A stretch of DNA of 64,000 nt from an uncultured Clostridium sp. GTDB lineage: Bacteria; Bacillota; Clostridia; Lachnospirales; Lachnospiraceae. Location: the NCBI GenBank assembly GCA_945915475.1, contig CAMEFI010000010.1:1-64000 (forward strand), read 5' to 3'. The stretch's first letter is position 1; each line of letters begins with the position of its first letter. A program made the translations under genes and the position numbers. Below the pieces are notes generated by a model. It saw only the letters and a list, made by a program, of their open reading frames with translations, ran no database searches and was not told the DNA's origin. Shown in pieces: positions 31,495 through 53,476 of the stretch.

Positions 31495-32211
31495 GTGGGA
31501 GGTTTTATGATAGTTTATGATAAGGAAGAAATGAAAAAAACAAAAGAGGGATGTTATCCCACACTTTCTAGTTTGTATAGTATTATCCCAAGAGATGTAA
31601 GACTACATATGGAGAGGGTTGGTGTGTACGCTACTGTTTTTTATGATTATTTGTCAGAGTGTTATCCGGATATTGTGGAGCCCCTTCATCATGAGATGGA
31701 TGACTGTATACATGATTTGTTTACTCTGCATGATATCGGGCGGGCTTTTGTTCCAATTCGTTTTCAGAACAAAGCAGGCGGTTTGACAGAAGAAGAGTTT
31801 GAGATGATCAAACAACATACCATATTGACAGCAGACACATTAGATAGTGTATATAAGCTTCCTTTTTCTGACACGGTGAAGATGCATTTGTATAATATAT
31901 CCATGTATCATCATGAAAAATATGATGGTACCGGATATCCTTTCGGTATAAAGGGGGAGCAGATTCCCATTGAAGCCAGAATATGTTCCTTAGCAGATGC
32001 CTTTGACGGAATGACAAGTTGGAAACCTTACCGCAAAAATATGAGTATGGATACTGTTCAGAGAATCATATTAGAAGAAGCCGGTAAACAGTTCCAGCCA
32101 ATTCTTTCCGTTGCGTTTTCAGAATGCATCCATCGTATGCCTATGAATATGGGTGCGGAATGGGAAATGGAGGCAGGTCATTATTTCACAGAGAAGCAGG
32201 ATCATTTATAG
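31495..32211 (+). CDS. HD-GYP domain protein, putative c-di-GMP phosphodiesterase
   Basis: LHDIGRAFVP, HHEKYDGTGYPFGIKGEQIPIEARICSLADAFDGMTSWKPYRKN. Confidence 0.85.
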   Translation: MGGFMIVYDKEEMKKTKEGCYPTLSSLYSIIPRDVRLHMERVGVYATVFYDYLSECYPDIVEPLHHEMDDCIHDLFTLHDIGRAFVPIRFQNKAGGLTEEEFEMIKQHTILTADTLDSVYKLPFSDTVKMHLYNISMYHHEKYDGTGYPFGIKGEQIPIEARICSLADAFDGMTSWKPYRKNMSMDTVQRIILEEAGKQFQPILSVAFSECIHRMPMNMGAEWEMEAGHYFTEKQDHL

Positions 32212-32248: not shown

Positions 32249-33199
32249 ATGTCAGATGAAAAGAATGATAACAAGGAACAACTGAATAAGAAATCAGGCA
32301 GTTTAAATGCTGTGGATAAGCAGTATAGAAAACTAGAGAGAAGCTCCCGATTCTGGAATAAGATAGATCCGGCAAACCGCTTCCGACACTGGTATTTAGG
32401 AGCAGCCAGTGTTACCAGAAGTCTTTTTCGCGTGGTGGCGGCATGGCAGACTATCGTTATTTTAACAAGCATTCTCGTGATTTTATACATATTAGCTGCA
32501 TTTTATACGGGAAAAGGAGAATTTGTGATTAAGCTAGACCGTCCCATGGCCAATGAGGGATTTATTCTTTCGGAGAATCAGGATTTCAGTGATTTTCTTG
32601 TGTCACTCAGGGATGATGCGGTGAAGAATGCCACGAATATTTCCATCTACGATCTTCCAAAGGATGTGATGGATGTGGATGGTAAGCATAATGGAGCCAA
32701 TTACGTGGCGTATACGTTTTATCTGAAGAATAAGACAACAAAAGCGCATGATTATCACTATGAATTGTCTGTGCAAAGTACCGCAAAGAGTGCAGATACT
32801 GCCACATGGGTTATGGTTTTTCAGAATGGAAAACAGAATGTCTATGCCCAGGAGAACAAAGGTGGTTACCCGGAATGTCTGTACAGTAAATGGGAATTTC
32901 CTTTTATGGAGTATGCGGAAGACCCCAAGGTGCAGTCTGTGGTGGAAGATGCTGATAAAGCACATATAACGGACGAGATGATAGAGTATCATGAGTTTAC
33001 CCAGGTGGAGGGACTTTACCAGTTTGAAACGGTTCCCTGGAATGCAAAGGATCTTGTATGCATTGGAAGCCGGCAGAATATGGAACCGGACGAGGTGGAC
33101 AAATACACTGTGGTAATCTGGTTAGAAGGGGATGACCCGGATTGTAAAGATGACATATTAGGCGGACATGTGGAGATGTCCATGAAATTTATGTATTAG
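32249..33199 (+). CDS. Single-TM anchored surface protein with C-terminal IWLEG module
   Basis: TM WQTIVILTSILVILYILAAFYTG, extracellular domain ending YTVVIWLEGDDPDCKDDILGGHVEMSMKFMY. Confidence 0.6.
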   Translation: MSDEKNDNKEQLNKKSGSLNAVDKQYRKLERSSRFWNKIDPANRFRHWYLGAASVTRSLFRVVAAWQTIVILTSILVILYILAAFYTGKGEFVIKLDRPMANEGFILSENQDFSDFLVSLRDDAVKNATNISIYDLPKDVMDVDGKHNGANYVAYTFYLKNKTTKAHDYHYELSVQSTAKSADTATWVMVFQNGKQNVYAQENKGGYPECLYSKWEFPFMEYAEDPKVQSVVEDADKAHITDEMIEYHEFTQVEGLYQFETVPWNAKDLVCIGSRQNMEPDEVDKYTVVIWLEGDDPDCKDDILGGHVEMSMKFMY

Positions 33200-33276: not shown

Positions 33277-34182
33277 ATGAGGATTATGAAGAAAGAAACA
33301 AAGGAAAAAAAGAAACCAACCATGACGCAGAAAGCAAAGAAAATCCGCAGTATTGTTATGATGTCACTGCTTTGCGTGTTGTTGTTGTCAGCGGCAACCT
33401 ACGCATGGTTTACACTGAGTAATACGGCGAAGATTAGTAATCTGACCATGACGGTGGGGGACGTAACGGGTTTGCAGGTGGCAGACATTGCAGATACAGA
33501 TACAGCAAACGGACCGGCTGATGAGTCTTCATGGAAGGCGGAAACAACTGCAGTAGAATTTAATGGGAAATTGTTGCCTGCTACTACAACAGATGGTATT
33601 GACATTTATGAACCGGTATATGATGAGAGTGGATCGGTTAGCGATTTGAGTGCTTCTGCTACGACTAAGAAACTTGACAGTAATTCAGTCATCAATTCGA
33701 TTGGATATTATGTGGAATATTCTTTTTGGATTCGTGCGTTAGGACCTACAGGTGCGCAAACTACTGTTAAGTTAGCACCTGGTGAAGGTCTTAATGATGG
33801 AATATATAATGCATCGGCGTCAGGAACCTATTCCTTATCATCATCAAAGAATGACGGTATATTACCTTCGGCTGCAGTTCGTGTTAGTCTGATTAATAAT
33901 ACAGCTGTAAAGGTGTATGAACCAAATGCGGATTTTAGTGCTCAAGCTCAAAAAGTTGCTACGGATTCCCGTACTGACAAAACTGCAAAATCATCTGATG
34001 TGAAACAAAAAGTTGACGGAACATATGACAGTAGTGTTGATACTACTGTTTTGACCCTTGAAAATAATAAGGCTACCAAGATTACCCTTAAAATCTGGTT
34101 AGAGGGAACAGATGCCCAATGTGGTAATGAGATTGCTGCCAATAAAATTATAACACAGTTAAAATTTGTTACAGCTGAATGA
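33277..34182 (+). CDS. TasA-like ('AWF') anchored or processed surface/fibre protein with C-terminal IWLEG module
   Basis: SIVMMSLLCVLLLSAATYAWFTLSNTAKISNLTMTVGD leader; C-term KITLKIWLEGTDAQCGNEIAANKIITQLKF. Confidence 0.6.
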   Translation: MRIMKKETKEKKKPTMTQKAKKIRSIVMMSLLCVLLLSAATYAWFTLSNTAKISNLTMTVGDVTGLQVADIADTDTANGPADESSWKAETTAVEFNGKLLPATTTDGIDIYEPVYDESGSVSDLSASATTKKLDSNSVINSIGYYVEYSFWIRALGPTGAQTTVKLAPGEGLNDGIYNASASGTYSLSSSKNDGILPSAAVRVSLINNTAVKVYEPNADFSAQAQKVATDSRTDKTAKSSDVKQKVDGTYDSSVDTTVLTLENNKATKITLKIWLEGTDAQCGNEIAANKIITQLKFVTAE

Positions 34183-34250: not shown

Positions 34251-35918
34251 ATGGATGCATTTTTTAATTATTTTTACAATTTCATGAATGACGTGTTTGG
34301 ATATCTTTGGGATATTGTGGTTGCTTTGAAGAATGCCATTGTAGGAATTCTGGATGTCAAGTTTTATATGGATTTGTTTAAGTCCTACAAAGATGATCTG
34401 TCCACCGGTGGGTGGATTGCGGCATTTCTTACACATATTATCATTCTGTTGATTTTTATCCTGTTGGTCTATCTGATCGTGCGGGGAATCCGGGTATTGT
34501 TCCGTTTTAAAGTACCGGTTGTGGAGTACGAGGCCATGAAGGATGAAGTAGTCAAATTAAAACGGGAGATCATGAAGGCCAATTATGAAAAAGACAAGAT
34601 TCTTGCCATGAAGGTCAACGAAATGGGGATGAAGGTGAATCCGGATTTGTTAGATCTTCAAGAGGATGAGGCTGCAGTGACTGCTGAGGAGACAGATCAC
34701 GAAGAAGAAGTCAGAACAGCCGCTGCAGAGAGTGAGAATAATTTAGATGACTTAACGGATGAAGAAAAGGAAGCGTTGGCTGTGGCACAGGCAGAGGGGA
34801 AGCCGGTTCAGAAAGTGAATGTGGGAGAATTACGTTTTCCAAAGTTATCTGCGGTGGATACATACTATCATTCCGAAGATTATGTGGCACCACAGTTCCC
34901 AATGAATTATACATTAGAAGAACTTTGTATGGCATTTCGTAATTTCGCAGCTTCGAAGCTGGGGCTTTATTATGAGTTGGAAGTCATCCGGGAAGTTTTT
35001 GCTTCCTTTGGAGCAGCCAAAATGCTGATTTTACAGGGTATTTCCGGTACCGGTAAAACTTCCCTTCCATATGCACTGGGACAGTTTATCAATAATCCGA
35101 GTCTGATATGCTCTGTTCAGCCGTCCTGGCGTGACCGGACAGAACTTTTTGGATATTATAATGATTTTACCAAGAAATATACGGAGACAGACTTCTTAAA
35201 GACAATATATGAATCCCATTATCAGGAGAACATTCGTGTGATTATATTAGATGAGATGAACATTGCCCGGGTAGAGTACTATTTTGCAGAAATGTTATCC
35301 ATTCTGGAACTGCCACGGGCGGAGGAACGTTATATTTCTGTGGTATCCAGCAAAGCGGAGAATGATCCGGAGAAGATGATCGATGGTAAGGTCTGGATTC
35401 CGGACAATGTGTTTTATGTAGGAACCATCAATAATGATGATTCTACTTTTGCGGTAGCAGATAAGGTATATGATCGTGCAATTCCTATTGATTTAGATGA
35501 CCGGGCTACCGTATTTGAGGCACCGGATACAGAAGGAATTCCAATTAGCATGGATTATCTCACTTCTTTATATGATAAGGCAAAGAAGGATTATCCATTA
35601 TCAGAGGAAAGCCTCATGGAACTGGACAAGTTGGATACATACCTGATTGAACATTTCCGATTGACTTTCGGTAACCGTATTTTACGTCAGATGAAAGATT
35701 TTGTACCGTGTTATGTCGCATGTGGTGGTACAGAGATGAATGGAATTGATTTTATGTTTGCTAAGAAAATCTTACGTAAATTTGAATCTCTTGGACTTGG
35801 ATTTATCCGGGACGAGATTGACGGACTGATTGATTATCTGAATCATGCCTTTGGAGAGGATAATTTCAAAGTGAGTAAAACATATTTAGCCCGGCTGAAG
35901 AAGATGAGTGGGGCATAA
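34251..35918 (+). CDS. Membrane-anchored McrB-like AAA+ ATPase
   Basis: N-terminal TM FLTHIIILLIFILLVYLIVRGI; Walker A LQGISGTGKTSLPYAL, Walker B VIILDEMNIARVEYYFAEML, sensor YVGTINNDDSTFAVADKVYDRAIPIDLD. Confidence 0.8.
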   Translation: MDAFFNYFYNFMNDVFGYLWDIVVALKNAIVGILDVKFYMDLFKSYKDDLSTGGWIAAFLTHIIILLIFILLVYLIVRGIRVLFRFKVPVVEYEAMKDEVVKLKREIMKANYEKDKILAMKVNEMGMKVNPDLLDLQEDEAAVTAEETDHEEEVRTAAAESENNLDDLTDEEKEALAVAQAEGKPVQKVNVGELRFPKLSAVDTYYHSEDYVAPQFPMNYTLEELCMAFRNFAASKLGLYYELEVIREVFASFGAAKMLILQGISGTGKTSLPYALGQFINNPSLICSVQPSWRDRTELFGYYNDFTKKYTETDFLKTIYESHYQENIRVIILDEMNIARVEYYFAEMLSILELPRAEERYISVVSSKAENDPEKMIDGKVWIPDNVFYVGTINNDDSTFAVADKVYDRAIPIDLDDRATVFEAPDTEGIPISMDYLTSLYDKAKKDYPLSEESLMELDKLDTYLIEHFRLTFGNRILRQMKDFVPCYVACGGTEMNGIDFMFAKKILRKFESLGLGFIRDEIDGLIDYLNHAFGEDNFKVSKTYLARLKKMSGA

Positions 35919-35967
35919 CACAACGTTGTATTTCTGCATGGAACGACATAAGAAGAAGGATAAGAAT

Positions 35968-37125
35968 ATGGTATACGATGAATATTCAGATGAAGTGTTA
36001 AATGCATATGCCAAGATGACCGGAAAGGCAGAAGGAGATATTGAAGAGGATCCATACTATCAGTATTTTTACAATCTCTTAGAAACGGGTCGCAACTACG
36101 TCAAGTATTCCTATGTCCGTCTGGTCAAGGAAGTAGATGAGACCTGGGTTAATGCAATTGAAGAGGCGTTGCCATCCCTGCAATATGTTGTCATGCATCC
36201 CCGTAAATATATTGAAGAGGATAGAGAAATTGTCAATATTGCAATGGCAAGAAATATTACGGCAGAATCCGTGCGGCATTTATTGTCCCATAGCAATTAT
36301 ATTGATGAATACCGGGAGGATGGAACGGTGATCCCGAATAAGATTCTCAATGTATATAAGGAAGAATCCCTGAATACTTATGAGAATCGTTTTATCTGTA
36401 CACTGATCGCTGAATTGCAGTTTTTTATCAATAAACGGTTTGATGCCATTTTTGAGGCCAGTAAAGATGAATTAGGCGTTAATTTTGAAGTAGATTCCAG
36501 TATTGATAACTATACGGAAACGGTGGACTATTCCCTGCGTATTAAGATCCGGGATAAACAGACGGATACAGAAAATGAGTTTGAAAATAAAGATACTTTT
36601 GCAAGAATCATACAATTGCATCGAAAGATCAATATGTTAGTCTCCACAGAATTTGTATCCACAATGCGGCGTTTTCCGGCGGTAAAACATCCCATTGTTC
36701 AGACCAATGCCATTGCAAAGAATCGTGATTATAAGGCCTGTCATAAATTATGGAATTTTATTCATTCCTATAATCAGGTTGGCTTTAAGGTGGATCTTGT
36801 GAAGCAGGATCCCAATATTTCCAAGTCTTTTGAACAGGATATTTATCATTCCTTTCTATGGAATTATGCCATGCTGCATAACTATATGGAGGATGTGGAT
36901 GCTTTGAATATTAACCGCGAGACAAGAAAAAAAGTACTGGATATGCAGGGAATTCGGCAGTTGTTAGAAGAGATTGTGGCAGGTACAGATATACCGGATG
37001 CCAATCTCCGTAAGATTGTAGATAACGAACTGAAAAACATCCAAAAACGAAGAAAACAGGAAAAAGCAGCGGCAGAAAGAGTAGTGAAACAGCGTGGAAA
37101 GAACAGTCTGAGAAAGCGGGGATAA
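35968..37125 (+). CDS. DUF2357/McrC-N-like partner protein (start chosen at ATG 35968; ORF track uses GTG 35908)
   Basis: VIPNKILNVYKEESLNTYENRFICTLIAELQFFINKRF signature; no PD-(D/E)xK seen; very basic C-terminus. Confidence 0.6.
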   Translation: MVYDEYSDEVLNAYAKMTGKAEGDIEEDPYYQYFYNLLETGRNYVKYSYVRLVKEVDETWVNAIEEALPSLQYVVMHPRKYIEEDREIVNIAMARNITAESVRHLLSHSNYIDEYREDGTVIPNKILNVYKEESLNTYENRFICTLIAELQFFINKRFDAIFEASKDELGVNFEVDSSIDNYTETVDYSLRIKIRDKQTDTENEFENKDTFARIIQLHRKINMLVSTEFVSTMRRFPAVKHPIVQTNAIAKNRDYKACHKLWNFIHSYNQVGFKVDLVKQDPNISKSFEQDIYHSFLWNYAMLHNYMEDVDALNINRETRKKVLDMQGIRQLLEEIVAGTDIPDANLRKIVDNELKNIQKRRKQEKAAAERVVKQRGKNSLRKRG

Positions 37126-37127
37126 CT

Positions 37128-37781
37128 ATGAAAAAAGTATTGTGCGTCATCAGGGATATTGCATTTGTACTATTTATTCTTGCTGTATGTGGAATGATTT
37201 TTCTTATGTCTTCCGGCAGACATGTCTCAGTTGCAGGATACCAGGTGTTACGGGTTCTTACCAGTAGTATGGAACCGGCAATTGCAGAGAACACCTGTAT
37301 AATCATAAAAGAATATCCGGCAGAGCAGTTGAAAATCGGGGATATTATTACATTTACATCCGATGATCCTCAGATTCAGGGATATTATAATACCCATCGG
37401 ATTTATGATATTGTGGAAGATAATGGGGAAACTCTTTATATTACAAAGGGGGATGCTTCTCCTGGCGTGGATGCATATCCGGTGCATCCACAACAGGTGG
37501 CCGGAATATTTGTGAAAGAATTACCGGGAGGAAGAATTCTCGGTAAGTGTTTTCTTGCATTATCAGATAACCGGGTCTATTTTCTGGTGATTATGCTGCC
37601 TTTGACTTTGTGTCTGTTATCCTATTTCTGGCAGATTGTGGGACTGGTAACCGGTCGATATGATGACACGGAAGAAGAGGAAGATGCAGCGGATGAAGAT
37701 GAGATTGCACAACAGGATTGCGAAGAGAGAATAGATATGGGAACAGAAGGTATGACGGAATCTACAGACCAGGATATGTGA
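37128..37781 (+). CDS. SipW/ER-type (S26B) signal peptidase I
   Basis: VLTSSMEPAIAENTCIIIKEYPAEQLKIGDIITFTSDDPQIQGYYNTHRIYDIVEDNGETLYITKGDASPGVDAYPVHPQQVAGIF: Ser/His active-site layout, TMs at both ends. Confidence 0.85.
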   Translation: MKKVLCVIRDIAFVLFILAVCGMIFLMSSGRHVSVAGYQVLRVLTSSMEPAIAENTCIIIKEYPAEQLKIGDIITFTSDDPQIQGYYNTHRIYDIVEDNGETLYITKGDASPGVDAYPVHPQQVAGIFVKELPGGRILGKCFLALSDNRVYFLVIMLPLTLCLLSYFWQIVGLVTGRYDDTEEEEDAADEDEIAQQDCEERIDMGTEGMTESTDQDM

Positions 37782-37805: not shown

Positions 37806-38900
37806 ATGCGAAAAGATCAACAAGAGAATACAGGAATAAAAGGGAATCCTACGCATTGCATTCATCAGGTGCATTTGTTGGGGAAGGATTGGGACCTCAA
37901 GATTATGTCTTATGTGATGCTGGTTGTACTGATGGTAGCTTTGATTGCCGCTACGGTTGCCTGGTTTTTTTATATTAAGGTGGTGGCTGTCTCTAACATG
38001 GAGTTTACCACTGCGTCAAGCGACAGCCTGAAGGTAGAGATAAAAAATGCAGAGAATCCCAATGCCACAGATGGCTTTATTGAATTAGAGGAAGGGGAAG
38101 AGGACAGTGTTTTTGTCGACCTGGATATGCCGGTATTTGAAAATGTGGAACAATATGATTTGGTGGATGAGAATTCCTCTGTCGAAAACACCAATGGTAC
38201 ATCCAAGAAGGTCAATCGGATGGCTCCCGGTGTATATGGTTCATTGACTATTCGGCTGACACCACTGAATCCGGAGATTAATCATTACCGAATCACACCG
38301 GCGGCTTTATTTACTTATGCTGATGGTAAGAAGGATACCGTTTCAGAAACCGGGAAAGTGAATGCCATCCTTGGCAAGGAGAAATTACAGGCATTGGCAA
38401 AAGGACATATTTTGTTTTTTGCAGACCGCAGAGAGATTCCATCCGATTCCGGGGGAACCATTACCATTGGAACAGATTCCAAAGCCATTACAGAATATAC
38501 CCATAATGGGAAATATGTGTTCTGTGATTCTATTGATGCGGATATCCCCATGGAGGGGGAACTTTCATGGAACGACACGGAACAGAAAGGGGAGACTCTT
38601 ACCATAACAGTATATTGGTATTGGCCCTATGAGTATTCCAATCTAAGCAGTGGTATTCAAAGTCGTATTCAGTTGCCGGCAACTGAATTTACAGAGGATG
38701 TTGTTCGGAATCCGGAAAGGTTACAGTATTTTGACAAAGATAAAATGCAGGAAATGTTGAATTCTTCCATAACATGGAATGAGATTCAGTTATATGATTT
38801 TGCAGATACACGAATTGGAACTGATGTGAAGAGTATTCGAATGCATTTGAAGGTGGATGGTTATCATGCAGTACAGACACAAAGCGAACCAAATGAATAA
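37806..38900 (+). CDS. Anchored 'AWF' surface protein, TasA-like leader
   Basis: YVMLVVLMVALIAATVAWFFYIKVVAVSNMEFTTASSDSLKVEI, then beta-rich extracellular region. Confidence 0.55.
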   Translation: MRKDQQENTGIKGNPTHCIHQVHLLGKDWDLKIMSYVMLVVLMVALIAATVAWFFYIKVVAVSNMEFTTASSDSLKVEIKNAENPNATDGFIELEEGEEDSVFVDLDMPVFENVEQYDLVDENSSVENTNGTSKKVNRMAPGVYGSLTIRLTPLNPEINHYRITPAALFTYADGKKDTVSETGKVNAILGKEKLQALAKGHILFFADRREIPSDSGGTITIGTDSKAITEYTHNGKYVFCDSIDADIPMEGELSWNDTEQKGETLTITVYWYWPYEYSNLSSGIQSRIQLPATEFTEDVVRNPERLQYFDKDKMQEMLNSSITWNEIQLYDFADTRIGTDVKSIRMHLKVDGYHAVQTQSEPNE

Positions 38901-39717
38901 GGTAGACGAGGAAATGGGTTCTTCTGCACATGACAGGATGTCAACAAAGAGAAGAAAACAGATAAGTGCCAATCAGAAATGGTTGCTGGCAGCAATGATT
39001 GAAGTCTGTATTCTTTTGATGATGGGATTTGCATGGTATACCTATCTGGCGCATCGCAAGGTACTTTCCGAGGAAAGAGAAGTGATGGCTCCTTATTATC
39101 TGTACCTGGTAGAACCAAACGGCAAGGATGAATTCCAGCTTACCGTTGGAAATCTTCACCCGGGAGAGACCAAACAGATTATGTTAGGTGTAACGAATCA
39201 GCCACCGGAGGGAGAAACGGAGACATCTTATCAAATCAGTAAGAATTCCAAATTTCATTATGAATTGGAACTGGCATACACACAGAATCTTCCGGTAGAA
39301 TATAAAGTATACGAATTAGCGGAAGCATCGGAAAATACTCCAAATGACAGTACTATAACTGTTGAATGGAAAGATACGGACAATTCAGTTATTACAAAAT
39401 CTTTTGCAAAAGATACACAATTGACGAAGAATGCAAAGTCGGACACATTGACTTTGGAGAATAATAAAGAGATGTATGGAGAAGACAATCCGGTGAATGT
39501 GGGACAGTATGATCTGTACGATAATGTGAGTGGTATTCCTTTTGATCTGACGACAAAAGTAGAGGATAATAATGTTACCTTTGATCTGGATTATTATCTG
39601 ATTGAGATTGACTGGAAAGATAATATTCAGTTTTCGGATTACCTGAAAGAGACCGATCTGGTATATGTGATTGTAAATGCAATGCAGATTGAACCGGAGA
39701 AATCTGCCGGCGAATGA
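38857..39717 (+). CDS. Anchored 'AWY' surface protein, TasA-like
   Basis: KWLLAAMIEVCILLMMGFAWYTYLAH..., APYYLYLVEPNGKDEFQLTVGNLHPGETKQIMLGVTN; start overlaps upstream gene (alternatives 38866, 38890). Confidence 0.55.
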   Translation: MVIMQYRHKANQMNKVDEEMGSSAHDRMSTKRRKQISANQKWLLAAMIEVCILLMMGFAWYTYLAHRKVLSEEREVMAPYYLYLVEPNGKDEFQLTVGNLHPGETKQIMLGVTNQPPEGETETSYQISKNSKFHYELELAYTQNLPVEYKVYELAEASENTPNDSTITVEWKDTDNSVITKSFAKDTQLTKNAKSDTLTLENNKEMYGEDNPVNVGQYDLYDNVSGIPFDLTTKVEDNNVTFDLDYYLIEIDWKDNIQFSDYLKETDLVYVIVNAMQIEPEKSAGE

Positions 39718-39744: not shown

Positions 39745-40719
39745 ATGAAGAAACAAAAAGAATCCGGAAGACAACTTCATAAAAAGAAATACAGAGTGGT
39801 TCTGGGATTTTTCACTTTTTTTATTTTGCTCTGTCTTGCAGGGGGAACAATGGTGGCAAAGTATTATGCCGGACGCAGGAATAAAGGTGTTGCAACGGCA
39901 TCCAGTCTCTATTTCACCAGTAACTTATTGAAAAATGTAAGTAATGTAACAGAAGATAATTATCCGGTCATTTATAATACAGATGCCTGGGATGGGGTGA
40001 ATCCTTACCAGTTTAGTCTGGAGATTCGTAATTATCAGAATCAGTTATTGTACAATGACAGGAATCTGGATATACAGTATCAGATCAACTTTCAGCTGGT
40101 GGGAACAACGGATGGCGGCTCTTACCAGGTGACATACGGCAGTGAAACAAAGACGATTACCTCAAATTCGGCTTGTTCCTTCACTGCCGGATTAGCTGGT
40201 GGACAGGCAAGAGCGGATCAGTTCTCTGTTTCTTTTGCAAGACCGGAGGGGAATACCAGTTCCACTTACAGATCCGTTGGAATTCGTGTAACAGCAACCC
40301 CTGTTTCACCGGATTATGTTGCCAATTATGAGACATTAGGAGGAATCCTGTATGCAAGTATTGTATCCTCCAAGTTTGAGTTAAAGGGGGAATTCTCTAA
40401 AATTCCGACAGGAAAAGTCGGGCAATATGCAGGATTTCCATATACAATTTCCTATAAGCCGGGAGTGGATGGTGCAACCCGTAAGATAAGAATTACATGG
40501 GATTCCTCAAAACTTCAGTTGGATCAGTTCAGTCCGTATTATGCATCAAAGCAGGAAGATTCAGGAGAGAATAACAAAGATTATATTGAAATTACCATGG
40601 AACCATATGCATCTATGGATATTTTATTTTACAGAACAGATGCATTTGATCCGAATACTACCATTGATGCATTAAATGGGCTTGTTGTGATTACAGATAA
40701 AGGAGGTGTTACTCCATGA
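39745..40719 (+). CDS. Surface protein with 'GGT-x-AKYY' leader
   Basis: VVLGFFTFFILLCLAGGTMVAKYYAGRRNKGVATASSLYFTSNLLKNVS, then beta-rich region. Confidence 0.55.
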   Translation: MKKQKESGRQLHKKKYRVVLGFFTFFILLCLAGGTMVAKYYAGRRNKGVATASSLYFTSNLLKNVSNVTEDNYPVIYNTDAWDGVNPYQFSLEIRNYQNQLLYNDRNLDIQYQINFQLVGTTDGGSYQVTYGSETKTITSNSACSFTAGLAGGQARADQFSVSFARPEGNTSSTYRSVGIRVTATPVSPDYVANYETLGGILYASIVSSKFELKGEFSKIPTGKVGQYAGFPYTISYKPGVDGATRKIRITWDSSKLQLDQFSPYYASKQEDSGENNKDYIEITMEPYASMDILFYRTDAFDPNTTIDALNGLVVITDKGGVTP

Positions 40720-43700
40720 AGAAACAGTTTGCAAAGATCTTTTTTATACTAACATGGGTACTGTTCTGTGTTTTAGGAATAGAAGAATATAAAGTTGAGG
40801 CTGCGGATGGACTAGTATATGTGGAGAACCAGCCTTTACAACCGGGGACGTATATTATTAATTCTGTTGACGGATGGATTGCATTGCAGAAATATAGTAA
40901 AGAACAGGATTTGTCCCAGTGTACATTTGAGTATTTATTAAATGATACAAGTTCTACATATGATTTGACCATTGCAAAGGGATTTACAGGAGTAGGCAGT
41001 AAAGAACATCCTTTTTCGGGAACGATTATTACGAATTATACATCTGGTAATATTGTCCTGAAAACGGAAAAACCACTGTTTCAGTATCTGTCTACCGCAG
41101 CAAAAGTGAATAAGATGAATATTCAGGTGAATGGTTCTGAGTGCTTGGGTGGTCTTGCACAATATCTGGTTGCAGACCAGTCACTAACTCCATTGGATCT
41201 GAATGGAATTACCATAACCGGAACAACGGATACATATATTACAACCAATAATGCTGAAGACGACTGCAAATATGCAGGCGGTTTCTTTGCTCATGTCATC
41301 AATGAACAGACCAATCCGGTTACCATTCAATTTTCTAATGTGTCTCTTTCGGTACCGGTAAAAGTACCGGTGGATGGATTGGGCGCTGGTGGATGGATTG
41401 GGCATATTTCAGGGAAAATGGTTCTTTCTTTTGCAAAGGATTATGAGATTACCAATACGGTCATTCCCTGTGATAATGCGGAAGGAAATGTATTAGGCGG
41501 TCTGGTAGGATGCGTGGAGAATTCAGATGTCACCTTACAGACAACCGGGACAGCTACCGTTTCCTGTTCGGCAGATATCGGAACAGATAGTAATAGAAAG
41601 CAGACCGCAGGAAGTGTTTTTGGAAAAGTTGTGGGTTCCCATATTCAGATGGATGCGGATCTTCAGGTAACCGGCGGGAAATTATATGGCAGATATGCCG
41701 GTGGCTTTGCAGGGGAGATAGACACTTCGAATATTACATGGAACCATACCTTTATTAGAAAACAGTCTATTCTGTATCCAGCAGCAAGTTCCGGTGAAGA
41801 ATCCGGTTGGTCGGCTGTAGGAATGTTTGTAGGGAAAATGACAGCTTCGAATATTATGCCGGGAGATAAACTTTCCGGCAATGTGGCTACCCTTTATGGT
41901 GGAGATGTAACGGGTTCTTACAGTGTGGTGGGAAAAGCAACCAATAGCAATAATACAGAGAAATATCATGTGGGCGGGTTCGCAGGATATGTGGAGAATT
42001 CAGATATCTTATTAACGGCAGAACACGGCTTGGATGTGGTGAATTTTACAACGGATGGAACTGCCGGTAATATATCTGCGGGGATTGGATGCTATGTTGC
42101 AAATGATGCGGCACAGACGGCACATAAGATACAGTTCATTCATGTGAAGGATCAGAATAATACACGTGTACGGCTTGTTTCCTGGAGAGGAAATTGTGGT
42201 GGACTGATTGGGAAAGCAGTTGTGAATCAGAACAGTCAGGTGGAACTGTCAGACTGCAACTTCAATGTTGTCCTCGTAGAAACCTGTTCCGGAGCGGGAG
42301 ACAATGGAACCTGGTCTATGGGAATTGGATATCTGGACAATCCGGATTGCTCGGATTCTCTGTTTGGTATCCGGAACGTAGATTGCAGAATCACGAATGC
42401 TAATAAGAGTACGAATTTCGGAAAAGGATTTGTTTTTGTGAATAAAACACTTAAATTAGAAGCTTATGGAGGAATCATCGGAATTGCGGATGCAGATGTT
42501 CAGATAGATGGAGTGGTATTAGATCATTCGGTAAGTGACATGGATGCTTCTAATGTTTCGAATTATGGTGGACTATTTGGAGTCATTAAAAATCAGGCTG
42601 CAGATACCAATACTTTGCAGGGAAGAGTGCGCAAAGTTTCAGTGTCAAATGTCAGCATCGGAAGAAATGCATTCTATAATATACGTGATAATTTCGGAGG
42701 ATTATTCGGAAAAGTTGAGAAAAAGACGGCGGTTTCTCTGACAGGAACCATGGAATTAAATGGTGGAAGTGATGGTGTTCCGAAACAATCCGTGTCTGTT
42801 TCAAAGAAATACTTAGGAAGTGTTGCAGGCTTTATCGATAATGCCTTGATTTATTTGGAGCCGGACATTGTATGGCATCCATCTGATTCTATTAAAAGTA
42901 ATGAAATCGGTAACTATGGTGCAGTAATCCGTAACCAGATAGTGGGTGATACAAAACTGATTGACAATTATCAGGTAACTGGTACCATAGGTTCCAATAT
43001 TGACTCTGTTGTGGATCTCCTTCGTCTGGCCATTGTCCTGAATACCCAGGGGGCATTTATGCCTACCGGAAATACAACGGATACATTTGATACGATTCGT
43101 GCAAAGGCATATACCCTTACTCAGAATGCGTATGATTTAACAGACAGCGGATTAACCTGTATGGGACGCAATGACAGTGAAGGATTAAAGTATCCATTTA
43201 CCGGTTCTTTGAAAGGGGTAAGTGGTGGTACCACGATTCAATATCATATCAATGGCTACGGAAAGGGACAGACAAATCTTGGACTGTTTCCGGCGGTGGG
43301 AGATGGTGCTTCTTTTGAAAATATCACCCTTAACTATGAAATTGCGTATCTGAGATTAGAATATTATACAAATAACTGGTATTATCAGGTTCCTGATGAT
43401 GAACATGCAGGCGGACTTGCCTGTTTTGCATCGGGAGATATTACACTGAAAAATGTCCGCTATATTGGAAAGATGAAAGATTATCCTCAGGAACAGTATA
43501 AAATTTCCAATAAAAAGTTCAATGGAGACTATGATTATCTCGGTGGTCTGATAGGACAATATACAGGTGCCAACGGAAAACAGCTTGTTATGGAGAGCAT
43601 CAGTGGTTCCATGACAGACTTTACCTGCCAGGATCCAACCCATATTATGGGTGGTGTCATAGGTATTGTGAATACCGATCAGGTGGCAGGTACTACATCG

Positions 43701-46700
43701 GATACCTCATGCCGGATTGAGCTTTCCGGGATGAACAGTATAGATGGGAACATTACCTTTTCGGAAACCAATGATACAAAGAATAAGACCGGATTATCCG
43801 GACTTCCGGCTATGGTCAGTTCTTTTATCACCGTGATTGGAAAGCCGGATCAGACCGGGGGCAGTTTACGCTATACAGGAAGATGCAGAATGCAGGTGAA
43901 TAATCTTACCATGACTGGAATTACCCAGAATATTACCAGCGGTAATAATGCTTCGGCAATGGGTGGTCTGCTTGGTTATCAGTGGGCAGATGTGAATGCC
44001 GGACTGGATGAGATAGCAATAGGTGACGAATCATCTCCTGTAGCACTTTCAGGAAATGCCGGTTTTGGTGGCTTGCTCCATGGGGTTTACGGACGTATAG
44101 ATGCCAGTCAGATAACCTGGAAAAAAGCTTCCATTGACGCAAAAAATACATCCGGTGTAGATAATTGTGCTCTGTTTGTAAGGGATGGTCAGTACCTGTA
44201 TCTTTCTGTAAAAGATTATGTAGTGGAATCCGGCGTTGCGCTTTCTAATTATTCCGGTACCTGTTTTGATGAACTGGTTGGCTTTAACCGGGGTGGCAGT
44301 GATGAAAATCATGGTGGAATTGTATCCATTAGCAGTAGTTCCGGTAAATATCTGGGGAAAGGTGGCAGCAGCTATCAAAGCTATGATGCAAAAGTAGGTG
44401 CAACAGATAAGAAGAATACAGAAACCCGTTATTATTATGATCTGGATACCCTGGTCTATCCGGCAGCTTCGGATGATTATGCCGTATTAGACTCACCGGA
44501 AGATATTATGATCTGGCATTTGTTGCATTATGTGAATCCGAATATCCGGAAGACGGTTTCGGATTCGGTACCGGATTCTCTGCCGACAGAATATACCATC
44601 ACTGGAAGTATTGATATGACCGGATACAGTATTTATCCCACACCGGTAGAAAAGGAATCTTATCAAGCAACCGGTGCAACCATTATACTGAATGTTCAGG
44701 ATATGATAACCGGAGAACAAAATAAGAGTGTTCCCATGTATCCGGATGACAAGAATTATCAGCATTACCGGATGCAGTCCGGTCTCTTTTATGATGTGGC
44801 CGGTCTTTCCGTGGAAGGACTTACTTTGAGTGGAACATACAGTGCCTTTTCTACGGATAGTAATGTGTCCGCCGGAGCGTTGGTGTCAGGAAAAATCTAT
44901 GGACTGGAAACAGGTAAAGACAGCAACAACAAGACATTATATGATGCAACGGTTAAGAATGCATTTCAGAATATCACATTAAGCAATCTCTGGTGTGTAA
45001 GCAGCAGTTCTATGGATTACGCGAATCCGGTGGGGTTGATGATTGCGAATATTGCATCCGGGTCAGATGTTGCGTTAGATGGAATCGCTATGACAAATTA
45101 TCAGGATGGCGATGTGACACAATCGAAGAAAGCGGCCAGTGCACTGATTGGTAATGTTGGTGGGGCAAAAGCCACCTATATCACATTGTCATTTAAAAAT
45201 ATGGATATTGCCGATGCGGCACAGGGTAAGTCTTCCGATGGTCTTCATTCTTCAACACAGGATGAGGCACTTTCCAAGGCATCCTTTATCTATTCTTATG
45301 ATTATGAAGCAAACTGTACCGGAATCTATCTCTTTGATTATGCGGATTATAGGGAAGGCAGGATTGTTAAGCCTTCCACAAAAAAGATTACCTTAGGGGA
45401 AGAATTAGGAGATAATAATGGAAGTCCCAATTATGCAGTAGAAGAGTACTTTGATAAAGATATGCCGGTGGGACAATTATTAATACATTCAGATGAGATT
45501 GCTTATGCCAGTGAGAATTATCTGCCCTATGTTTCTCAGAAGATTAATGACCGGCACATTCTGGTGAATCCGAAGGTGGGAAATATTACGAAAGGCTGTG
45601 GAACATATGAAGATCCTTATCAGATTAGTTCCACCAGACAGATGCTTTCGCTCTACCGGTATCTGTATAAAGAAGCAGATTTTGCTAATATTCTCCAGGC
45701 CGGTAACTGGTCCATCAATGCCATGGGGACAGACGAAACATTTTGTGATGGCAGTGATGTATCCCATACCTTGCAAACCTATGCAGATAAAGAAAGCGGA
45801 TTTCCAACCACGGAACAATTAAGTCAGGCATATTACCAGATTACCGGAGATCTTGATTTTAGTGCATATCCGGAATTTACGGGATTTGGATCAGAACAAT
45901 ATCCATTTATCGGTGTGTTTGTTGGAAAAGTGGAGAATTCGAAGTATCCTGTGATTACCATGTCCAAGCAGAATAGTGCAGAAATGGCCAGCTATGGTTT
46001 TATTCAGAATGCAAAGGGATGTGTAGTTAAGAATCTGTGCATTCAGTATGCTCAACCGGTTCAGATCAATGCGAAAGTAACAAAAACAGATGATAAGACG
46101 AACCAGGAAGTGACGGTTGATGAAGGTGGAACCGGCGGAGGGGTAATTGCCACAGTACTTGGTGGTGAGAATATCATTGATCATGTAATCGTGAAAGGTG
46201 CGGTTGCATCCGCCAACAGCAATGTGGAATGTTTCAACCTTAAGAATACGAAAGCTGTAGTTGGCGGTTATGTTGGTATGGTTCAACGGGGTGGTGTGAT
46301 TCTTCGAAATGTGGATGTGGAAAGTCTGCAGCAGTTTACGGTATATTATGGAGCACCAACAGATAGTAATGTTACTGCAAGTGATTATATATATACCTGC
46401 AGCATGGTTGGCAGAGTGAAGGATGGCTACGTTGTCTATGATGGAGAACAGGCCGGTAACACAAAGGAAGTCTTAAGGACAATCTCTGACTTTTCAGCAG
46501 GAAATGTCTCTGGTAATACGGAATCGAACACTGCAACGACACTTCCACTAAGCCGGTCCTATGCCGTTGTAAATGGCGCATATCTAGATAGTCAGATTAC
46601 TGCTGATGAGAAGATCGTATATAGTACAACCGGGTATTCTGTTCCGAATGCTGCGGGACTGCAGGTGCTATCCATGGCATTAGATTCCGGTGTGTTGACA

Positions 46701-49700
46701 TATAAGGGCAGTGATAACAAGGTGGCTTACAGTGTAGCTTCCAGACAGAGACATGGAAATTATGATAATGTGGGTAATAGTACAGCAGATGATGATAATA
46801 GAAAAAATGTTATTCTGTCTGATAATTTTACATTAAATGGTACCTTTACCCAACAATATGGCAGTTTCCTTTCCCAATATGTCAGTTTTTCTTCTGATAC
46901 TATCTGGGCATCCGGAAGCTATTCTGACGGAACCGGAGTACTGGCGCTGAATCAGGAGGGTAAGAATTATAATCTTACCGGTACTACCTATGATATGTCT
47001 GTATTTGGAACGGCATTCCGTGGGCTGGGTGCCCGGTATTTTGAAGAAGATAATGTGTTCCGGTGTAATCTGGCAGGTCCTGACGGAACCCCGGCGGTAA
47101 TCAAACTTCATATGATTGTGGATGGAATTCAGGATGTGACGGATGCGGCTTTGCTGAATAATGTGATAACCACGACAGCCTCCATAACCATATCCAATAT
47201 TACATTATCCGGTTCCATTGAAAACAAAAGCGAGATAGAAGAAGAGAATATTTCTGAAACGGATCAGAAACGGAATGCAGCCGGGTTTGTCAGTACATTA
47301 AAGGTGAAAAATGGAATTACTTTTCATAATGTTTCCCTGAATGACCTTACGGTAAATTCCCAGGGCTATGCCGGTGGATTGGTAGCATATGATAACAATA
47401 ATAAGACAATTACATTGACAAATTGTGGAATCAACACAGAAGCTGACATAGCAGATACGGTGTATACAATAGTTACCGGTATGTCGGATGTGGGAGGATT
47501 GATTGGATATACGAATTCGGAAGTCACCTGTACACTGAGTGCCATGAATCATTTGAAGGTTACCAGTGGAAATGTAAGTGCTTCGGAAGGACAGAAAGAT
47601 ACGGGAGGCAATGCCGGAGGTCTGGTTGCACGGATTGATGATAGAATATTAAAGGTGAATCAGAATGATGCGGCCGATATTGTGTACGGAGATTGTGTTA
47701 CCGTACAGTCAGCCGGAATCCCCTCCAAGATTGGTGGTCTGGTTGGATGGTGTAAAAGTGCCTATGTGAATCGGCTTACCCTCACCAATGTGCATATTGA
47801 AAATGTGTATGATGGTCCCGAGATTCCAGAAAAAGATATCAATAAAGATAATGACAATCTTCTGGTAGGAATAGCAGGAGTTGTAGGATATATACCTAAA
47901 AGTGGTGTTGTTACGATGCGTTCTGTAACTGTAGGAAGTGATAGGGAAAGTGATTCGGTTACCATAGGTATGCATCTTAATAAACTAAGTACCAATTTCG
48001 GTGGAATTGGGGGTCTTGTTGGAAGAACGGGCCCGGATAATACAGAATTGACTTTGACGGACTGCCATATAAAAGGCTGCAAAAAAGCGGATGGCTCCTA
48101 CACTGCGGTGATTTCCGGTGGGGTGAACGTAGGAGGTATGGTCAGTAATACCCGTACTTTTACAGGAGATAATTTATCCGTAGAAAATGTCAAACTGGAA
48201 ACATCAAGATATGTTGGAGGCATAATCGGATACCATGAAGTCGATAAAACTTGTACATTAAAGAATGTAAAAAGTACGAATGTACATATTGTATTTTTGT
48301 GTCAAGGATTTCAGGATGGCGGTGTGGCCGGCGGAATCTGTGGTCAGGCGGTAGGAAACATTTCGTTACAAAATGCATCTGTAGATGGTCTTGTGGTGGA
48401 ACCGCAATACTGTAATGCTGCAGGTGGATTTGCAGGCGTGTTTGGTTCTTCCTATAATCATAATGGCACAATGAAGGTTGATGGTGACAATAATTCCGTT
48501 AAAAATAGTAAGATATGTGGTGGCATTGTTGGCGGAGGCATTGGATATATTTATTATAATCACGAAAAGAAAACAAATATACACCAAAAGATTACAATTC
48601 ATCAGAACATGATGATTGCCTATCAAAATTCATTATGGAAAACAAATAATGTTGCAAAAGATTTTGGAACAGGGAGCGCAGGCGGGTACATCGGTGCAAA
48701 CGGAAGCAAAAGTACCAATCTGGATATGGATGATGTAACCATAGAGGGTAATCTGATTGCGGGTTATTCCGGTAACAGTACTGGAAATGTATTGTATCTT
48801 GGCGGCTTGGAAGGAAGAGCTAAGAATGCCGCTGATATATATAATCTGCGCCTTCAGGATAACTATATAGGAATGATGAAAGGGTCAGATACGAGTAATG
48901 ATAATTTGAGTAGTATAAAAGCCATGAACGTAAGTAATATTGATACATGGAAAGAACAATTATATTATGTTCAATATTCAGATGGGACTTACAAATATAA
49001 CACGACAGCGCATAGCACTGATTTAAACAAGGAGACACAATACCAGTATTCCTATCAGCAGGGAACCATGATCGGATATTATGATACGAGTGGTTCCAAT
49101 GAAGCTTTCAGCCGGATGATCAATGTCAGTGTAGCCTATACAGACCCGGCGTATCGCCCGGTTTCGGATGTGGGTATGGATCCTGGTTATAATCTTACAT
49201 CGAACCAGGATATGTATGGGAAAAGCCGGGAATTTGCTGCAATCGTATATGATGGTGAGGCGAAGAATCATAAGGAAGGTGTGAAACTGCCGGAGGGGCT
49301 TCCGGATGATATGCAGACCTTCATAGGTATAGATCATTATATTTTTGGTAATCTGGAACATATTATGACAGATTCGAACCAATGCTATTATTGGCTTAAT
49401 AAGAATTATCAGAAGAATGGATGGCTGGATGATACTGCGGAGACAAAGGATGTATTATCTATCAGCAACATTTATAAGAATACATATAAGGATAATAATG
49501 GATATAAATCCAAATTAAAGATAAATGGTACAATCATTCCTATGGTAGTATATGATTCGGCAGATAGCGGTTCTTTGGATGAGGTGATTGAGTCCTATAT
49601 TAATATATTGACAAACAATTCCGGAGCATTAAACAGTAAAGTGGCGGCAAATAATAACTCGTTAGCGGTAACAACACATAAGATTCGGATTCGCACTGTT

Positions 49701-51922: not shown

Positions 51923-53476
51923 TTAAGATTGCCCAAGCATAAAGGAGATGAGATCCAGATCCTTCTCCAAATCTTCAAAGGTAGGATAGTATTCATCACT
52001 CTGATAGACCCGTTGTACCATGGAATGATTCAGCTCGTCAAATTCTCTTAAATCCACTGGCTTACTGAAGAAATATCCCTGTGCAATATCACTTCCAATC
52101 TCGCTGAGAAGATTCGTCTGCTCTAAAGTCTCCACACCCTCTGTGATTACTGTAAGGCCAACTTCTTTGGCCATGGCAATCAGATAACGGAGAATGGACA
52201 TACCTTCTTCGGAGTCACTGTTCTGGTTCAGGAAAGAACGGTCAATCTTAATCCGGTCAATTGGATAATCCCGTAGCAGATTCAAAGGGCTGTTCATACT
52301 TCCGAAGTTATCAATGCATAAGATATAACCATGCTCCTTTAAAGTGCTAATGATCTCTTTGATCTGGGCACCACCGTTGCTGATACCACGTTCCGGAAGC
52401 TCCAGAATCAACAGGTTCTTATCAATCAGATAATGCCCACATAATTCATCCAGATAATCAATAAATTTTGTATTCTGGAAATGAATCGGAGAGATATTCA
52501 TGGCAATGGGAGTTGGTATAATCTTATTATCAATCCAACGCCGGATGGTTTTCAGACATTCTTCCCACATGTAATAATCCAGTTTCTGTACCAGATTCGT
52601 ACTTTCAAACAGAGGAATAAATGCATAAGGGGATAGAATTCCCTTGCCGGGATAATCCCAACGTACCAAAGCTTCGGCACTGACAATTCGAAATGTCTTC
52701 AAATCTACCATTGGCTGCAGATACATAAGAAACTTATGCTGTTCCATGGCTTCTTCCATTTCATGGCTCATTTGCATGTTCTGTTTGAAATTGGACTCTA
52801 ATTCCTCAGAATAGAACATATAGTTGCATTCTTCTGGATCTTTTATAAATTTCTGTGCCAGCATACAGGCATTGACCATCTCCATGATGGGCTGTCTTGT
52901 GTTGGTAATATGAAAGATTCCAAAAGAAGACAGAACCTGGAAATTCTCACTGTAATCCTGTAACAAACCGGTAAGTTCTGCAATCTGGTTAAGGATATAT
53001 TCCTCTGATTTTCCTTTCATAATCATGCCAAACAGATTAGAATAAATCTGCGCAAACAGATGACGTTCCCGTTGACCAATCTTACGGAGAGAGCGTGCGG
53101 CATAAAGAACGACATTATCGCCTTCCGTAGGTCCAAACAACTGGTTGATCTTACCAATGTTCTGAATATTAAAGCAGACAAGACTGTAATCACCGGCCGG
53201 ATCTTCCTCAAATAATTTACCTGCTTCTTCCATAAAATAGTCAATGTTACCAAGCTTTGTGATAGGATTCGTATATGCAATGGTATTCAGTTTTTTGAGA
53301 GTGTCTTCGTTGAGTTTGTGTTCTGCATCCAGATCGGCTTCTAATTTATCAATCTCTTTTACATGATAATTATTATATGCTTTGTATAGATCAAGCTTAT
53401 AAACGCAATATCCGATACAGCCCAATAACGCAACAATAATTATAAAAATCATCATAACAATATGATATAAGTCCAC
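51923..53476 (-). CDS. Membrane-anchored degenerate GGDEF plus EAL domain protein
   Basis: AYTNPITKLGNIDYF...AQIYSNLFGMIM in place of GGDEF; SAEALVRWDYPGKGILSPYAFIPLFE, AMNISPIHF, LILELPERG, CIDNFGSMNSPLNLLRDYPIDRIKIDRSFL. Confidence 0.88.
   Translation of the reverse strand: MDLYHIVMMIFIIIVALLGCIGYCVYKLDLYKAYNNYHVKEIDKLEADLDAEHKLNEDTLKKLNTIAYTNPITKLGNIDYFMEEAGKLFEEDPAGDYSLVCFNIQNIGKINQLFGPTEGDNVVLYAARSLRKIGQRERHLFAQIYSNLFGMIMKGKSEEYILNQIAELTGLLQDYSENFQVLSSFGIFHITNTRQPIMEMVNACMLAQKFIKDPEECNYMFYSEELESNFKQNMQMSHEMEEAMEQHKFLMYLQPMVDLKTFRIVSAEALVRWDYPGKGILSPYAFIPLFESTNLVQKLDYYMWEECLKTIRRWIDNKIIPTPIAMNISPIHFQNTKFIDYLDELCGHYLIDKNLLILELPERGISNGGAQIKEIISTLKEHGYILCIDNFGSMNSPLNLLRDYPIDRIKIDRSFLNQNSDSEEGMSILRYLIAMAKEVGLTVITEGVETLEQTNLLSEIGSDIAQGYFFSKPVDLREFDELNHSMVQRVYQSDEYYPTFEDLEKDLDLISFMLGQS

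Follow-up and report, generated by a model that had tools for sequence, protein, structure and literature searches.

Genetic organization of the locus

The DNA analysed here, referred to as the window, is a stretch of 64,000 nucleotides from an uncultured Clostridium sp. (Lachnospiraceae). All genes from 31495 to 51806 lie on a single strand with short gaps or overlaps, in the order HD-GYP protein, T protein, transmembrane (TM)-TYAWF protein, AAA+ protein, DUF2357 protein, SipW, three secreted proteins, and a 3696-aa surface protein (Table 1). The original prediction had been drawn around the AAA+ and DUF2357 genes (34251-37125). Both genes are located exactly there, but the functional unit is larger (approximately 31495-51806) and includes the SipW gene directly downstream. 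The pair had also been placed inside a surface-protein operon, which agrees with the presence of SipW and several SipW-type secreted proteins in the same operon.

The outer neighbours are housekeeping genes, with polynucleotide phosphorylase, FtsK, formate-tetrahydrofolate ligase, a miaB-type radical SAM protein, and pgsA on one side and a decarboxylase/carboxylase cluster on the other. The HD-GYP gene, whose product contains the motifs HDIGR and HHEKYDGTGYP, opens the operon in the clade of the window, and its position is the same in related loci. A homologue of the flanking GGDEF-EAL gene adjoins the operon in locus L015 as well. The bracketing of the operon by these two genes suggests c-di-GMP control of the surface proteins. 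Pfam assigned no domain with confidence to the giant protein at the end of the operon; its homologues, 1500-2900 aa long, close related operons.

Table 1. Features of the operon and its flank in the window. Well-flanked loci are the 65 Bacillota loci for which 5 kb or more of flanking sequence was available on both sides.
Feature	Position	Strand	Basis
HD-GYP type protein, predicted c-di-GMP phosphodiesterase-like	31495..32211	+	Pfam HD_5 3e-23; NosR c-di-GMP phosphodiesterase model 3e-16
T protein: single TM, long cytosolic N-tail, ectodomain, no AWF cleavage motif	32249..33199	+	Homologues in 53/65 well-flanked loci
SipW-type secreted protein: TM, then TYAWF (33397-33411)	33277..34182	+	Sequence; homologues in most loci
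Membrane-anchored McrB-type AAA+ protein, 555 aa	34251..35918	+	Motifs, profiles, structure model
AAA+ protein, hydrophobic membrane segment (residues 53-77)	34407..34481	+	Sequence; model helix 52-84; conserved in 80 homologues
AAA+ protein, Walker A GISGTGKTS	35037..35063	+	Identical in 80/80 homologues
AAA+ protein, Walker B VIILDEMN	35238..35261	+	D334, E335, N337 invariant in 80/80 homologues
AAA+ protein, sensor/GTPase-signature position NNDD (NxD, then D)	35430..35441	+	N394, D396, D397 invariant in 80/80 homologues
DUF2357 (McrC N-domain) protein, no nuclease, basic helical tail	35968..37125	+	Pfam PF09823; model
SipW / ER-type signal peptidase	37128..37781	+	TIGR02228, NF046067, motifs
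SipW-type secreted protein (TVAWF)	37806..38900	+	Sequence
SipW-type secreted protein (GFAWY)	38857..39717	+	Sequence
Secreted protein, AKYY-type signal	39745..40719	+	Sequence
Giant 3696-aa surface protein, N-terminal hydrophobic signal, closes operon	40716..51806	+	Homologous giants at the equivalent place in related loci
GGDEF-EAL protein flanking the operon, predicted c-di-GMP turnover	51923..53476	-	Pfam EAL 7e-61, GGDEF 2e-8

The membrane-anchored AAA+ protein

An McrB-like AAA+ protein had been proposed from Walker A, Walker B, and sensor motifs preceded by a hydrophobic TM segment and a coiled acidic linker. The motifs are present and invariant in 80 homologues, and this invariance indicates that the motor is under selection to work. 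The TM segment and the linker are likewise borne out by the sequence, the structural model, and the homologues. In the model (mean pLDDT 80), an N-terminal helix is followed by the membrane helix, a cytosolic coiled coil (conserved, at residues ~92-129), a disordered acidic linker of low confidence, and the AAA+ core. A modified-DNA-binding domain at the N-terminus was not found by Pfam or in the model, the first 250 residues being occupied by the TM segment, coil, and linker.

Three sequence comparisons assign the AAA+ protein to the McrB type: the family profile matched E. coli McrB and no other solved structure (E 5e-7), hhalign against E. coli McrB gave a probability of 96.6% (E 6e-10), and the best NCBIfam match was McrB. 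The NxD motif was considered as proof of clade membership and dropped. The NNDD of the window protein, which aligns without gaps to NTAD of E. coli McrB, satisfies both NxD and NxxD, and NxD alone is therefore not discriminating for the clade.

The DUF2357 partner

With regard to the partner, the ATG at 35968 (385 aa) is a more likely start than the GTG at 35908 (405 aa). As had been noted, the protein carries the DUF2357 signature NTYENRF and ends in a basic tail; it matches the DUF2357 model of Pfam (PF09823) at E 3e-10. In its AlphaFold model (mean pLDDT 81), a mixed DUF2357 region is followed by helices only. A relation to McrC is suggested by the Pfam model and, weakly, by Foldseek, whose best PDB match was McrC chain 6hz4_M at low significance (E 0.038, probability 0.80); hhalign of the DUF2357 alignment directly against E. 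coli McrC alone returned nothing.

The original prediction also held that the partner has no visible PD-(D/E)xK nuclease, and this stands. Neither the window protein nor any of 75 homologues and 57 long tails gave a nuclease match in Pfam; DUF2357 was found in 61 of 76 family members, together with no family that could pass for PD-(D/E)xK. As a positive control, two ordinary clostridial McrB genes were examined with the same Pfam library; their partners show PDDEXK_7 and share a D-A-K motif with E. coli McrC. A degenerate nuclease was rejected as well, given the Pfam result, the helical C-terminal part of the model, and the length of the protein, which extends only ~85 residues past the point where PDDEXK_7 starts in the ordinary partners. 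Thus, neither an intact nuclease nor a modified-DNA-binding domain was found in the pair by Pfam or modelling. The tails of DUF2357 homologues range from 51 to 678 residues beyond residue 320, and many of them form coiled coils; the window protein has a short helical basic tail only.

SipW and the secreted proteins

The gene directly downstream begins 2 bases past the end of the DUF2357 gene, the two being separate genes in the window. Its product scored 76.9 bits against TIGR02228 (cut-off 51.85) and matched NF046067 at E 1e-20, below the cut-off of that model. Judged by its motifs (Ser in SSMEP, His in THRI, and GD), it is an S26-family signal peptidase with Ser-His in place of Ser-Lys. In several Bacilli-type loci, additional SipW-like proteins without the Ser and His motifs are encoded upstream (L087:4911-5483, L089:5988-6623, L097:6044-6628, L106:6037-6645, L132:4804-5388, and L133:5089-5598), while the downstream copy retains Ser-Met, plus the HR motif except in L132. 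The upstream copies may possibly serve as pseudo-peptidase scaffolds.

Among the other products of the operon, the TYAWF protein is probably the main substrate of SipW, and the T protein is probably a membrane-anchored subunit. The cytosolic N-tail ahead of the TM segment has a median length of 47.5 residues in T proteins versus ~11 in the secreted proteins. It was also considered that the AAA+ ring pulls on such a tail in all secreted proteins, an idea that was dropped because only the T protein has a long one. One homologue of the TYAWF protein matched the TapA model weakly (1e-4). Profile searches of the PDB with the secreted proteins matched no solved fibre-subunit structure, TasA included, and the term "fibre" therefore rests on the signal type and on analogy.

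Fusion of DUF2357 to SipW

Some DUF2357 homologues reach a length of ~1000 aa. In four loci (L070, L075, L084, and L094), a single frame of 973-998 aa encodes DUF2357, a coiled coil, and SipW, in the domain order DUF2357, coiled coil, TM, peptidase, TM. The last 220 residues of these proteins represent a complete SipW with the Ser, His, and GD motifs kept, and Peptidase_S26 was found in two of the long tails by an independent Pfam scan. The junction is at the cytosolic N-terminus of SipW, which is compatible with the topology.

One of the four loci (L084) belongs to an isolate, Ruminococcus albus KH2T6. Within the genus of this species, a fused frame of near whole length was detected in 11 of 29 genomes, and the parts occur as separate frames, mostly neighbours, in another 13. 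Since the separate parts are mostly adjacent in these sister genomes, the fusion probably arose where both genes already lay side by side. Eight of the 11 fused genomes have zero counted internal stops, G403 and G395 have one each, and the frame of L094/G392 was confirmed to be open by ORF calling.

Fused proteins usually act within one complex, and the fusion is therefore the strongest evidence for the target of the motor. It is consistent with a membrane-tethered motor/activator pair that would act physically on a signal peptidase. It demonstrates a functional link, not its direction: SipW may be under the control of the motor or, conversely, one of the motor subunits may be a substrate of SipW. 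The McrBC-derived pair had been predicted to play a secretion-coupled rather than a defensive role, for which the SipW operons and the DUF2357-SipW fusions provide sequence-level support.

The fusion also bears on whether the ATPase is a MoxR-like assembly chaperone, maturing or inserting SipW or the T-protein complex once and not at each export or cleavage event. Foldseek groups the AAA+ core with helix-insert AAA+ proteins, NorQ chaperones among them, and the wide range of tail lengths is more in keeping with a tether than with a precise drive shaft. However, fold similarity cannot separate a chaperone from a motor, and the SipW fusion suggests a lasting complex over a transient contact, so that a one-time chaperone appears unlikely.

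Distribution and conserved gene neighbourhood

A profile scan of 84,980 species genomes revealed at least 547 relatives, the best 80 of which belong to Bacillota and, in a few cases, Mycoplasmatota. In a viral collection, 84 pattern matches were obtained, none of which was confirmed as a relative. DUF2357 adjoins the AAA+ gene in all 65 well-flanked loci (median gap of 37 bases), and SipW is found nearby in 61 of them, a TM-AWF protein in 59, and a T protein in 53. In Ruminococcus-type loci, a conserved protein of ~250 aa without a TM segment is encoded just before the T gene (L084:7701-8456, L098:7733-8506, and L076:7777-8541).

An independent set of 243 Clostridia genomes showed the association with SipW as well; here, 11 genomes besides that of the window were considered carriers (AAA+ at E < 1e-100). 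SipW occurs in 10 of these 11 carriers versus 53 of the 231 other genomes (Fisher p 7e-6). In G221, G277, and G295, three genomes whose sole McrB matches were weak and ordinary, no SipW was found in the genome search or at the respective loci.

Several loci deviate from this pattern. Two contain a tandem AAA-DUF2357-AAA arrangement (L026:5397-9785 and L127:7531-12103), in which two membrane-anchored AAA+ genes surround one DUF2357 gene without a local SipW. L126 has no local SipW either, and in L032 (8229-16000) an otherwise complete operon of the window type has no SipW between DUF2357 and the next secreted protein. SipW is thus not required for every member. In a local tree including four ordinary McrB proteins, these exceptions and the remaining loci split from ordinary McrB with support of 98/97, a value to be read with the long branches and a warning issued by the program. 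After the tandem, L127 encodes a membrane protein of 1383 aa that has a transglutaminase core.

These neighbourhoods are relevant to two other explanations. In the first, the pair would be a membrane-tethered anti-phage system derived from type IV restriction, with the surface fibre or envelope as sensor and an unrecognised effector. According to the main text of PMC11090510, McrB-type AAA+ and DUF2357 proteins are otherwise defence components, and the AAA+ core matches the PADLOC candidate model PDC-M26A (E 7e-35), as is expected from shared ancestry. On the other hand, the pair has no nuclease or other effector domain, the surrounding genes of the window serve housekeeping, secretion, and c-di-GMP functions, and homologous pairs occur in SipW/secreted-protein operons rather than mainly in defence islands. 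PADLOC gave few matches above 1e-10 among 140 random neighbour proteins from 59 loci, scattered over generic families, a count that comes without a background rate. The SipW linkage and the fusion are hard to place in a defence scheme. Overall, the defence reading is weak, and we consider it improbable.

In the second explanation, the pair would be a regulatory unit that senses fibre subunits or the c-di-GMP state at the membrane and, in response, activates or silences SipW or exerts feedback on expression. The HD-GYP and GGDEF-EAL genes at the two ends of the operon would fit such a role, but an HD-GYP gene is found in only 18 of the 65 well-flanked loci, and neither protein of the AAA+/DUF2357 pair showed a DNA-binding or c-di-GMP receptor domain. 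A regulatory unit of this kind is improbable.

Relationship to known systems

The pair shares with E. coli McrBC the McrB AAA+ core, an adjoining DUF2357 partner, and the same gene order. It differs in having a membrane anchor in place of the N-terminal DNA-binding domain, in the absence of a PD-(D/E)xK nuclease, and in its location outside a defence locus. CoCoNuT systems (types II and III) are similar in the NxD branch of McrB, the coiled coils, and an McrC homologue whose nuclease is inactive or missing, whereas the window operon has no recognised HEPN or other nuclease gene, its associated enzyme being a signal peptidase.

The SipW system of B. subtilis is not known to use an McrB-type motor. 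That of C. perfringens works without one (PMC7395162). The window operon resembles SipW-TasA of Bacillus and SipW-BsaA of C. perfringens (PMC7395162) in combining an ER-type signal peptidase and dedicated TM-AWF-type substrates in one operon, but its secreted proteins lack a profile match to any solved fibre-subunit structure.

The pair is not new as such: it fits the CoCoPALM group, which was named without functional study in eLife 2024 (PMC11090510). The main text of that paper devotes one paragraph to the group, stating the McrB domain, the TM/coiled coil, and the association with a signal peptidase, and defers the analysis. As characterized there, CoCoPALM proteins combine an NxD-type McrB AAA+ domain with a TM/coiled-coil N-terminus defined as FtsB-like, and the window protein has a TM segment and a coiled coil by sequence and model. 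The expected neighbour, a DUF2357 McrC homologue usually with a coiled coil, is present with a short helical basic tail in the window, and many members have coiled coils in both partners. The associated gene of the signal peptidase family corresponds to SipW, with the frequency across loci given above. In the main text of PMC11090510, no SipW-type assignment, DUF2357-SipW fusion, secreted AWF substrates, or nuclease-less CoCoPALM partners were found. Beyond the CoCoNuT paper and preprint, a literature search found nothing that links McrB to a signal peptidase. Compared with that main text, the fusion, the assignment of SipW with its substrates, and the co-occurrence statistics are new here.

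Proposed function

The explanation that we favour, and hold to be probable, is that an NTP-driven McrB-type ring is coupled via a DUF2357 stalk to SipW and controls the processing, release, or assembly of surface-fibre subunits. It draws on the family identity, the nuclease absence, the membrane segment, the operon linkage, the co-occurrence with SipW, and the DUF2357-SipW fusion.

Briefly, membrane-anchored AAA+ subunits would form a ring, presumably a hexamer, on the predicted cytosolic face. The DUF2357 protein would be seated in this ring as an McrC-type stalk and stimulate hydrolysis of whichever NTP is used. Published McrBC work, as summarised in PMC11090510, identifies DUF2357 as a binding partner and activator of the McrB subunits in the hexamer. 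In place of the McrC nuclease, the stalk would carry a helical basic tail or an extended coiled coil reaching to SipW; the two are fused in some species and presumably touch each other in that of the window. The cycle of the ring might then be passed mechanically to SipW and to the putative membrane substrates, i.e., the TM-AWF proteins and the anchored T protein. As a result, substrate cleavage, membrane release, or ordered assembly of a candidate surface fibre would be driven or gated. From the sequences, the motor may drive SipW, place SipW, or assemble the T/AWF complex.

A more far-reaching version is tentative and remains doubtful to us: a type IV restriction engine may have been turned into a membrane motor, in which the ring would hold a DUF2357 shaft ending in the peptidase, as in the single polypeptide of Ruminococcus, and NTP-driven motion in the cytosol would be transmitted across the membrane for the cleavage, release, or assembly of fibre subunits on the outside.

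A signal peptidase is normally an energy-independent enzyme; if the above holds, one that is coupled to an energy source would represent a secretion machine of a new type. It would mean that a defence ATPase has been converted to a part of a surface-export machine and that a signal peptidase has been joined to an NTPase. The existing match of the AAA+ protein to a PADLOC candidate-defence model calls for caution against scoring such McrB genes as phage defence. The DUF2357-SipW fusion makes the coupling directly testable in a cultured species, Ruminococcus albus, and the module is found in a widespread gut family of Bacillota, with at least 547 relatives.
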